The notes beneath the pieces are model-generated. The model saw nothing but the letters and a program-made list of their open reading frames with translations. It was not told the DNA's origin and made no database searches. The translations under genes were made by a program, and so were the position numbers. DNA of 63,510 nt from NCBI GenBank assembly GCA_944325825.1, contig CALVBP010000009.1:1-63510 (forward strand), given 5' to 3'. Source of the stretch: Candidatus Gastranaerophilales bacterium (lineage in GTDB: Bacteria; Cyanobacteriota; Vampirovibrionia; Gastranaerophilales; Gastranaerophilaceae). Shown here in pieces: positions 49,494 to 53,141 of this stretch (its first letter is position 1; every line of letters begins with the position of its first letter).

Positions 49494-49844
49494 TGCTACG
49501 CACGTAGACTAACAGTCGGCAGACAAAGATAAAACTACAAGAAAGGAAACAAAAAAGAAGTCTGCCTCAATGGTGAATCTACAAACCGGAAAACAAATAA
49601 AGGCTACGCACGTAGACTAACAGTCGGCAGACAAAGATAAAACAACAGAAAGGAAACAAAAGAGCAAAAAAGACATCCCACATCAAGAATCCCCTGTTAA
49701 GGGACACATATAGTCGAAAATGATCGAGAGCCCCGAAGAGGGGCTCTCGATTTTGTAGAGATGACAAAGAGGCGGGCGAAAGAGTTAAGAGAGGAATATG
49801 GAGGAGATTCAATGCCCGCCGACTGGAGTTTACGTGCGTAGCAC
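49493..49844. mobile_element. MITE-like element with 27-28 bp terminal inverted repeats
   Basis: 49493-49520 starts GTGCTACGCACGTA and ends CAGTCGGC; 49818-49844 is its reverse complement with about 25 of 28 positions matching. The left end is repeated at about 49602-49629 in direct orientation and the right end at 49932-49958. No transposase is inside. The left end begins on the last base of the upstream gene's stop codon. Confidence 0.5.
49724..49754 (+). terminator. Terminator-like hairpin in the repeat region
   Basis: TCGAGAGCCCC and GGGGCTCTCGA form an 11-bp GC-rich stem followed by TTTTG. It can stop transcription from the gene ending at 49493, but part of the hairpin (from 49731) is within the 114-bp repeat unit. 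Confidence 0.55.
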
Positions 49845-50013
49845 CCCCGAAGAGGGGCTCTCGATTTTGTAGAGATGACAAAGAGGCGGGCGAAAGAGTT
49901 AAGAGAGGAATATGGAAGAGATTTAATGCCCGCCGACTGGAGTTTACGTGCGTAGCACCCCCGAAGAGGGGCTCTCGATTTTGTAGAGATGGCAAAGAGG
50001 CGGGCGAAAGAGT
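49731..50013. repeat. 114-bp tandem repeat, about 2.5 copies
   Basis: Units start at 49731, 49845 and 49959 with exact 114-bp spacing and few substitutions (for example GGAGGAGATTC versus GGAAGAGATTT). 114 is 38 codons, so a spurious minus-strand reading frame runs through, but it has no start signal or family. The last unit breaks off near 50013. Confidence 0.9.
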
Positions 50014-50754: not shown

Positions 50755-50783
50755 TTGACTATTTATTCCTGTTATTTTACGAT
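50755..50783 (+). promoter_or_regulatory. Candidate promoter of the cobalamin-riboswitch operon
   Basis: TTGACT (50755-50760) and TACGAT (50778-50783) with a 17-nt spacer. A start about 6 nt downstream would trim the first bases of the riboswitch P1 strand, so a slightly different -10 is also possible. Confidence 0.45.
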
Positions 50784-50864
50784 AAGGTAAACTTTATATA
50801 GGGAAACAACGGTGGAAATCCGTGACTGTGCCGCAGCCGTTATAGCCGGAATACCTTCATCATA
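50784..50864 (+). promoter_or_regulatory. Cobalamin riboswitch
   Basis: The sequence shows the conserved core of the cobalamin aptamer: GGGAA, then CGGTGGAAATCCG, ACTGTGCCGCAGCCG and the B12-box-like AGCCGGAATACCTTCATC. AAGGTA at the start pairs with TACCTT. It lies 83 nt or more before the first possible start codon, and a terminator-like hairpin follows. Such switches turn off B12 uptake, synthesis or B12-alternative genes when cobalamin is plentiful. Confidence 0.85.
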
Positions 50865-50866
50865 GT

Positions 50867-50905
50867 ACAATACTTCGGGCTAAAGTATTGTTAAATTTTT
50901 ATTTT
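50867..50905 (+). terminator. Expression-platform hairpin of the riboswitch
   Basis: ACAATACTT and AAGTATTGT form a 9-bp stem with the 7-nt loop CGGGCTA, followed by a T-rich tract (TAAATTTTTATTTT). It could be the terminator of the switch. GGCTA in the loop is complementary to TAGCC at about 50843-50847, so a loop-loop contact is also conceivable. Confidence 0.6.
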
Positions 50906-50946
50906 GTGGGTAAAAATTTCAAAAATATGATTTAAGGAGTAAGCAG

Positions 50947-51003
50947 ATGGGGCGGCAGACAAAGAAGGACTTAAGAATTGCCGCATTCTGTTCAAAATGT
51001 TAA
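50947..51003 (+). CDS. Possible 18-codon leader ORF
   Basis: AAGGAG lies 7 nt before an ATG opening 18 codons (starting MGRQTKKDL). It overlaps the next gene by 26 bp in another frame. It may couple translation to that gene. Part of it (CGGCAGACAAAGA) is identical to the repeat at 49516-49528, so it could also be a repeat remnant. Confidence 0.35.
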   Translation: MGRQTKKDLRIAAFCSKC

Positions 51004-51664
51004 TAAGGTAAACTCCGGAACCTGTCCGCACGGGCTGGCACCCGGGGCTTGTCCTGTCTGCTCAAAAATGGGCGGCGGAGGGGGCAGAGTCGGTGAACGA
51101 CCGCAAAAGCCAGGCGAGATGAGTTATCACCAGTGTGCAATGATTGGCGCTATGATGCGGGCACGTGAACATAGAATAGAAGCCCATGAACAAAACCTTC
51201 AAAAGCATCTGGAAGTGCTCAAGAATTTTGAAAACACAATGGCAAAACTTGCGGCTAGTATGCAGGAATTTGTTCAGAGTATTTCTAATAATATTCTTTT
51301 AAAACCGGCTGCATTTGTGATAAAAAATATTGCTTTGCCGGTTGTTAATTTTATTAGAAACCTTCCTCTTGCTCTTGTAAACTTTGTTGAAAGAATTGCA
51401 GCTTTAAAGGAAAAACTTGTCGATATTACCGATAAACTTAATGCAATTTTTGGCGAGGCGAAGGCTTTTGTTGAAAAGAAAATCACAGAACTTGTAAGCG
51501 TTTTAAAATCTAAATTTGAAGGCTTATTTAAAGTCTTTAAACGTAATAATACAGATGATGAAGATACAAAAATTGACGATGATAAAAAAATTTTTAATTT
51601 AAAAACTATATTACACAAATTAAGACGGAAGAAAAAAGATGAACGTAGTACCGAAGATAAATAA
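50978..51664 (+). CDS. Cys-motif helical protein under B12 riboswitch
   Basis: The 228-residue protein most likely starts at TTG 50978 (AAGGA 8 nt upstream). The N-terminus holds a three-cysteine motif, CPHGLAPGACPVC (C16, C25, C28), then a Gly-rich run and a conserved-looking SYHQCAMIGAMMRAREHR. The remainder is coiled-coil or amphipathic helix (about 70-190) with a basic/acidic tail. No family recognised. The cysteines and histidines could bind metal, haem or a corrinoid. It overlaps the next gene by 26 bp, and both are downstream of a cobalamin riboswitch. Confidence 0.7.
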   Translation: MPHSVQNVNKVNSGTCPHGLAPGACPVCSKMGGGGGRVGERPQKPGEMSYHQCAMIGAMMRAREHRIEAHEQNLQKHLEVLKNFENTMAKLAASMQEFVQSISNNILLKPAAFVIKNIALPVVNFIRNLPLALVNFVERIAALKEKLVDITDKLNAIFGEAKAFVEKKITELVSVLKSKFEGLFKVFKRNNTDDEDTKIDDDKKIFNLKTILHKLRRKKKDERSTEDK

Positions 51665-53141
51665 TGACCCAGAGTCTCAAAGACTTCAGCGGAATATGAC
51701 AGATACTCAAAAGAAAAATTCTAACAGCATGAAGGAAGGTAAAATTGTCAATGCTTTCGTTAAAGATCCGCTGCTTTCATTAGATGAAACAATAGATACT
51801 CTTGTAATTTCCGAAACCAGTATTGATTTACCGCAAAAGGTTTTTGAAAAGGAGGACAAAAAGAACACTGCATTGCTGCCAATTTGTGCTGCTACGACAG
51901 GTGTTATGGCTCTTCTGGGCGGATTTACCTATATGATTAAAAGTTTTTCAAAAAATAGGCTTGAGTCGACAAAAGAGTATTTACTTCCGGGGATAACGAG
52001 GAATCACTGTATAAATGATGAGATACACCAGAGTATTTTTAGTATGATTCAGTCTCCGAACAGAAAAACAATTCTTGCTTCTCTGGGGGTTATTACTCTT
52101 GGGGCAATGGCATTTATGGGGAAAGTGTTTATTGACGGATTTAAAGAGGTTTGGGTTCGCAGACAAGAGGCAAATATTCAAAAAAATCTTCAGGAAAATC
52201 TTATTGCTGTAGAGACACAATCTTTCTCCGGCAAAAACCAGATAATAAGAAGTATGCTTTCTTCCAAGGCTAAGATATTTTCTTCCGAACTCAAAGAGAT
52301 GGCATTTAAAGGTGAAGGAACTAATGATAAAGAATCTAAAAAAACAGGTTCACTAATGCTGCCTCTTATTGGAATCGGAGTGCTTACTCTGGGCGGGATT
52401 CTCGCTCTGGGATACTTTTCAATGAGAAATATCAGAAAGAGTGATGAGTTTATTAAAAAAGGTATTGAAAATACAAAAACAGGATTAGAGAATTTAATAA
52501 AAGCTTTTAATGAAGGAAAAGAAATAAATTCTGTTCAAAATCACGAGGGGCAAGTATTAACAGGCAATGATGCTTATAAACATGTTATGGAAAATATGCT
52601 TGAGTCGATTTATGCAAAGCCTGTGGAGATTGAAGGGTATGTAAATAAAATGAATTTGTCCCCGCAGGAGAAGGAAGAGTTTATCAAATATCTGAAATCG
52701 AGTATGAATCAAGCCACAGAGAAAGTAAACAGTGCTATAGGCGGCTCAGGCAGAAACAAAATTACATATTTTTCTCATGTTAATGACTATCTTTCTTTTT
52801 TCTATGACTGGTTGATGAATCCAAAGAACCCGCAGTTTAAAAATTTGTTTTTCGGTATTGCCGGAGTTTCAGCTCTTGCCTATGGAGGTAAGGCGCTGGC
52901 AGAAGCTGTTAAAGAGGTTCAGGTAAAAAAATACTCGGCGGATATTGAACTTAATCTTCAAAGAAGGCTCGTATCGACAGAACTTAGAAATTTTAAAGCT
53001 AAAAAAGAATCTTTAATAGAGCCTTTGTGTGATGAGTTTATGAAACAAAAAGAGAATGGTAAATCACCGGAAGAATTAAAAATTATAGCGGATAATATTC
53101 TGTTTGAGATTAAAAACGGCCCGCCGTTTGTTTATTCGTAA
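51639..53141 (+). CDS. Multi-pass membrane protein of unknown function
   Basis: The 500-residue protein has about four predicted membrane segments (about 84-104, 146-165, 246-266 and 398-418) separated by long charged helical regions. Two internal parts look alike: each has a membrane segment followed by a basic helix ending in a sequence like VRRQEANIQKNLQENL or VKKYSADIELNLQRRL, so the protein may be an internal duplication. No transport or enzyme motif recognised. It overlaps the Cys-motif gene and is the second gene of the B12-riboswitch operon. A membrane complex with its neighbour is plausible inference. Confidence 0.7.
   Translation: MNVVPKINNDPESQRLQRNMTDTQKKNSNSMKEGKIVNAFVKDPLLSLDETIDTLVISETSIDLPQKVFEKEDKKNTALLPICAATTGVMALLGGFTYMIKSFSKNRLESTKEYLLPGITRNHCINDEIHQSIFSMIQSPNRKTILASLGVITLGAMAFMGKVFIDGFKEVWVRRQEANIQKNLQENLIAVETQSFSGKNQIIRSMLSSKAKIFSSELKEMAFKGEGTNDKESKKTGSLMLPLIGIGVLTLGGILALGYFSMRNIRKSDEFIKKGIENTKTGLENLIKAFNEGKEINSVQNHEGQVLTGNDAYKHVMENMLESIYAKPVEIEGYVNKMNLSPQEKEEFIKYLKSSMNQATEKVNSAIGGSGRNKITYFSHVNDYLSFFYDWLMNPKNPQFKNLFFGIAGVSALAYGGKALAEAVKEVQVKKYSADIELNLQRRLVSTELRNFKAKKESLIEPLCDEFMKQKENGKSPEELKIIADNILFEIKNGPPFVYS

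Follow-up and report, generated by a model that had tools for sequence, protein, structure and literature searches.

A predicted AdoCbl-II riboswitch precedes an undescribed two-gene operon with a possible role in corrinoid handling in Gastranaerophilales

What does a cobalamin riboswitch control when neither of the genes behind it is a recognised B12 gene? B12 is a nutrient traded within gut communities, and the Gastranaerophilales (class Melainabacteria/Vampirovibrionia) are little-known gut bacteria. In most genomes of this order the standard B12 permease is absent, yet a B12-dependent ribonucleotide reductase is present in most genera outside that of the bacterium studied here. The locus in question lies in a 63,510-nt stretch of DNA from a Gastranaerophilales bacterium, called the window below. 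A first-pass annotation had described a cobalamin riboswitch followed by two genes, and proposed an undescribed system for the acquisition or handling of corrinoids (or cobalt or haem). We compared the locus with 144 related genomes, part of which are incomplete MAGs. Our literature search found no paper joining Gastranaerophilales with a riboswitch, and a paper dealing with Melainabacteria and cobalamin contained nothing that bears on the locus.

The riboswitch and its leader

The window presents a single match to RF01689 (AdoCbl-II), on the + strand at 50783-50864. It covers model positions 1-81 and scores 43.9 bits, where the gathering score is 36.5 (E 2.9e-7 in a search of the whole window). 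The cobalamin riboswitch of the first-pass annotation was thereby confirmed; that annotation had expected RF00174, and AdoCbl-II of the same clan fits better. On the strength of this score we consider the element to be a cobalamin riboswitch, for which cobalamin binding and a change in expression are predicted. No other RF01689 site was detected in the genome (1.85 Mb, 57 contigs). The leader contains the following features:

50755-50783, + strand: sigma-70-like promoter (TTGACT-17-TACGAT), adjoining the 5' side of the aptamer, 9/12 consensus positions
50783-50864, + strand: cobalamin riboswitch aptamer (AdoCbl-II, RF01689)
50867-50891, + strand: hairpin ACAATACTT-loop(CGGGCTA)-AAGTATTGT with a T-rich stretch behind it, 9 pairs, -7.0 kcal/mol
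50952-50957, + strand: GCGGCA, candidate switching element that by complementarity could pair with UGCCGC in the aptamer (50829-50834) or with UUGCCGC in the start-codon region (50978-50984)
50962-50969, + strand: probable ribosome-binding site AAGAAGGA, preceding the TTG start of the first gene

The promoter search around the aptamer returned 3 sites against 1.8 expected in shuffles, and L154 and L155, two close relatives, have a stretch similar to the site at 50755-50783 ahead of their aptamers. No promoter-like site was found on the + strand between the switch and the first gene, which answers the earlier concern that an independent promoter might drive the pair. The hairpin at 50867-50891 had been described as terminator-like. 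The hairpin itself is present, but it has just two G-C pairs and does not qualify as a terminator. It is probably the P13/L13 element of the riboswitch, and a loop motif similar to its own recurs in the leaders of relatives.

The leaders of relatives are informative about the likely direction of the switch. Among 80 distinct leaders, which are related by descent so that the counts are not independent, a terminator-like hairpin was found in 53 (against 5.3 in shuffles) and GCGGCA before the coding region in 26 (against 0.5 expected from a mononucleotide shuffle). These terminator-like hairpins are clearer than the window's hairpin at 50867-50891 and lie farther downstream, mostly ending shortly before the coding region, and 45 of the relatives' leaders carry an SD-like sequence in the 3' arm. 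In the window, folding predicted both the pairing of GCGGCA with the aptamer and its pairing with the start region. Without ligand, GCGGCA would pair with UGCCGC of the aptamer and the genes would be read; with ligand, GCGGCA would be freed and a terminator or ribosome-binding hairpin would close. The terminator and SD hairpins of relatives are what suggests this OFF direction. No strong terminator hairpin was found in the window's own leader, but the P13-like hairpin and GCGGCA are there; for this genome the mechanism is thus an inference.

Several other sequences were observed around the leader. A short ORF, MGRQTKKDLRIAAFCSKC, lies at 50948-51004 with a good SD (AAGGAG) and overlaps the start of the first gene in a different frame; it was not seen in the leaders of L154 and L155. 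Two repeat families together span 49495-50013 of the window, upstream of the operon: 55-nt units, of which three copies (98-100% identical) stand at intervals of 114 nt within 49731-50013, and a 59-nt repeat that occurs at 49495 and again at 49603, whose motif CGGCAGACAAAGA recurs in the leader near 50953. Before the switch lies a small ORF for which no family match was obtained, and the gene after the pair lies on the opposite strand.

Two proteins without recognised families

The two genes behind the switch, P1 and P2, present the following features:

50978-51664, + strand: P1, 228 aa, TTG start; a Cys/His knuckle and a glycine run, then amphipathic helices; no family match
51023-51061, + strand: codons of C16-x-H18-x6-C25-x2-C28 of P1, putative metal site, invariant in the alignment
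51639-53141, + strand: P2, 500 aa, long helices, four predicted membrane helices (residues 82-100, 145-163, 240-258 and 403-421)
52014-52265, + strand: P2 internal repeat copy 1 by hhalign, residues ~126-209
52779-53036, + strand: P2 internal repeat copy 2 by hhalign, residues ~381-466

The reported overlap of the genes is real and amounts to 26 nt. The CPHGxxxGxCPxC motif noted in P1 also proved to be conserved, C16, H18, C25 and C28 being identical in 46/46 aligned sequences. Beyond its glycine run, P1 is amphipathic and helical, and no convincing membrane helix was predicted there. The suspected internal duplication of P2 is real: the two copies match profile against profile with an hhalign probability of 98.2% (P 4e-14), whereas a control segment reached 9.9%. 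The AlphaFold model of P2 is helical with low overall confidence (pLDDT 66.5, pTM 0.44). With this weak model there was no Foldseek match at E<=0.001, and the best VIA Z, 7.8 on helical bundles, is in the range given by unrelated helical proteins.

As the earlier reading had it, no known B12 gene was detected behind the switch. Neither protein has a convincing match in Pfam or NCBIfam, and about 50 relatives of each yielded only scattered weak matches when compared with Pfam. FecCD permease, ABC ATPase and periplasmic binding domains are absent from P1, P2 and the families listed for these relatives, and the family scans recognised neither a transporter nor a corrinoid-binding domain in P1, P2 or relatives. 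PDB sequence profiles gave helical look-alikes only. Judging from these searches, P1 and P2 are members of undescribed protein families. The weak coiled-coil or amphipathic matches of both proteins and their relatives (apolipoprotein, EssA) were judged to be due to chance. For P2 as the type VII secretion protein EssA, the scores were 20.7 bits against a cut-off of 32.45 (TIGR03927) and 14.6 against 24.1 (PF10661), and a weak match was obtained in just 4 of 50 relatives.

Distribution of the pair, the switch and the standard permease

Of the 144 relatives, 94 were found to carry P1 and 97 to carry P2. An RF01689 match lies within 600 nt upstream and on the same strand in 89 of the 93 P1 loci, with a median gap of 124 nt. 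Of the remaining four, the G093 pair stands behind a canonical RF00174 rather than RF01689 (L130:5108-5279, - strand; 51.6 bits, above the gathering score), the G090 pair (L150) behind a weak RF01689 match of 20.9 bits, and no cobalamin riboswitch was found before the P1 locus of G103 (L129); the follow-up scan covered these three loci, and the fourth is that of G087. The cases of G093 and G090 show that the link to cobalamin is kept even where the class of RNA differs. Homologous pairs therefore consistently follow cobalamin riboswitches in other genomes, which the first-pass annotation had named as a point to check. In G093 the riboswitch class appears to have been exchanged before the same genes. 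In the window's genus, 62 of 62 RF01689 matches precede the P1-P2 pair, which is the sole detected RF01689 target in the whole genus.

Relatives of P2 extend beyond the order. They were found in f9, a family outside it, with a profile-profile probability of 90% over 60 columns, and stand directly behind cobalamin-riboswitch matches in four of four genomes (23.9-28.2 bits, below gathering scores). No cobalamin riboswitch was seen in family f14. Among the best 80 of 391 stretches matching P2, the closest named records belong to MAGs of Candidatus Gastranaerophilales, many of them recovered from gut or rumen samples; these 80 include records titled Gastranaerophilales, Melainabacteria and cyanobacterium, and two loci in MAGs labelled Acinetobacter, which we take to be mislabelled.

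The BtuC-type permease, FecCD, was detected in only 16 of the 144 genomes, in none of the window's genus and not in the window's own genome. P2 and the FecCD/BtuC permease largely exclude each other across genera: 2 genera have both, 33 P2 only, 11 FecCD only and 19 neither (Fisher P 0.004, a test that ignores phylogeny, draws on incomplete MAGs and covers FecCD as the sole importer type). The same pattern holds in f9, with P2 in all four FecCD-negative genomes and in neither of the two FecCD-positive ones. P2 and FecCD occur together in three genomes. Nine genomes possess NrdJ or MetH without P2, FecCD or a second, f12-type family, and in two of these nine the switch stands before CobT or CbiM.

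This second family was found in all seven genomes of f12 and two of the eight of f10, all without FecCD, where an unrelated large protein stands behind the switch. The protein (L072:711-2453; orthologues in L073, L074 and L076-L081) has about 570 aa and about seven repeats and directly follows RF01689. It is a predicted membrane protein and has no Pfam match. Its AlphaFold model (pLDDT 80.9, pTM 0.82) gave no significant Foldseek match and a VIA Z of at most 4.4, and profile comparison revealed no relation to P2. In f12 it is followed by a glycine-run protein of about 230 aa (L072:2463-3140 and orthologues), whose C-terminal part weakly resembles P1: hhalign gave 93% across 38 columns, while controls stayed below 1%.

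Elsewhere among the relatives, RF01689 sites without the pair were found before operons of a TonB receptor (BtuB), FecCD, an ABC protein and BtuF, and before NrdD/NrdG (class III ribonucleotide reductase), MetE, NrdAB, CobT and a CbiM/N-like locus; the importer, the class III reductase, MetE and CobT are targets within the order itself. Pfam confirmed a TonB receptor, NrdD, MetE, NrdA and CobT behind such sites; the CbiM/N-like cobalt transporter, in G100, was recognised by inspection of the sequence. Cobalamin riboswitches control biosynthesis, the transport of B12 and cobalt, and isozymes of B12-dependent enzymes (PMC3766115), and the RF01689 targets in this order match those classes, which makes them normal targets of such a switch.

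Candidate functions and comparison with known systems

Since the arrangement of switch and pair is kept across an order that mostly has no standard importer, an undescribed route for obtaining or handling B12 is suggested. We propose that P1 and P2 form a B12-repressed system of corrinoid acquisition or handling that is not homologous to BtuFCD. The two-gene operon would be repressed by cobalamin and expressed under cobalamin shortage. P2 would be an inner-membrane protein with a duplicated module of membrane helix plus long helix; P1 would be its partner, whose C-H-C-C knuckle may bind a metal and whose amphipathic helices may hold it on the membrane. Together they would serve in uptake, capture or retention of corrinoids, replacing the job of BtuFCD in related genomes. 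The riboswitch, the conserved linkage and the complementarity with FecCD all support this proposal, and the last favours its corrinoid branch in particular. Further support comes from the switches before the P2 relatives of f9, the normal targets of RF01689 in the order and the terminator-like hairpins of relatives' leaders. Against the proposal weigh the lack of a recognised transporter, ATPase or corrinoid-binding domain, the weak model of P2, the tested B12 enzymes missing from the window's genus, the genomes with a PF02310 match and not the pair, the three genomes with both P2 and FecCD, the nine with NrdJ or MetH and none of the candidate importers, and a window leader in which no terminator hairpin was found. 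It is the best of several explanations, and we give it an even chance of being correct. A bolder version is possible but rather less probable: P1-P2 would be the first of a new kind of corrinoid importer or scavenging machine that does without an ABC-type permease, with the P2 core in several families and the unrelated seven-repeat and glycine-run pair of f12 in the same role.

The B12-dependent enzymes of these genomes bear on what the pair might do otherwise. No NrdJ match was found in the window's genus (G001-G064), although most other genera of the order (G065-G107) gave one. The window's genus seems to have lost its B12-dependent ribonucleotide reductase while keeping the switch and the pair. 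MetH and QueG were not found in this genus either, and a PduO-type adenosyltransferase was found in none of the relatives. The single PF02310 protein of the window's genome is a radical-SAM enzyme. Six genomes of the genus (G005, G018, G020, G024, G056 and G058) have a PF02310 match in a frame of ~650-900 aa, which may represent a methionine-synthase-like protein lacking the activation domain. PF02310 matches were also obtained in G080 and G025, neither of which has the pair; in G080, NrdJ, the switch and the pair are all missing together, as the acquisition idea predicts.

Because the main B12 enzymes NrdJ, MetH and QueG were not found in the window's genus, B12 could be a mere signal there. 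Alternatively, then, the pair might be an apparatus of the cell surface or lifestyle (cell contact, envelope structure) for which B12 is an environmental cue only, and a helical membrane architecture without a known transporter fold would suit such a role. This leaves unexplained, however, both the exclusion of FecCD and the tie to cobalamin riboswitches, which involves two Rfam classes and two families; we consider it unlikely. As a B12-independent substitute, the pair would be produced in the absence of B12 so that the process of a B12 enzyme continues; this is less likely again. NrdD and MetE do stand under RF01689 in sister genomes, and the window's genus keeps the pair despite having no NrdJ match. 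However, P1, P2 and their relatives have none of the catalytic domains of MetE, NrdD or NrdAB, which were detected elsewhere as positive controls; membrane helices are present, the pair coexists with NrdJ in most other genera of the order, and its complementary distribution is with an importer. Least probable is the handling of cobalt or another metal, with the P1 knuckle binding cobalt or zinc and P2 moving or storing it: the invariant residues and the cobalt transporter under the switch in G100 agree with this, but cobalt import is the expected companion of B12 synthesis, and the P2 relatives of f9 have no P1-like neighbour, which places the metal motif outside the conserved core.

Like the BtuB-BtuFCD operon of this order, the pair stands under a cobalamin riboswitch of the RF01689 family and includes a membrane component, and the largely complementary phylogenetic distribution of the two suggests the same role. 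In contrast, the TonB receptor, FecCD permease, ABC ATPase and binding protein are all missing from the pair, and no sequence relation was detected. B12 uptake without a BtuC-type permease does exist in the small ECF-type and BtuM-type transporters; P2 differs from these in its 500 aa with long helices, its partner P1 and the lack of a convincing Pfam or NCBIfam match. The isozymes MetE, NrdD and NrdAB stand under the same switch in related genomes, whereas the pair has membrane helices and no catalytic domain. The aptamer itself exceeds the gathering score and is unremarkable as a member of RF01689; the novelty is confined to the genes that it controls. The pair offers a specific candidate, open to experimental test, for the missing B12 route of these bacteria, and if the acquisition reading is true, new protein families would join the cobalamin regulon.
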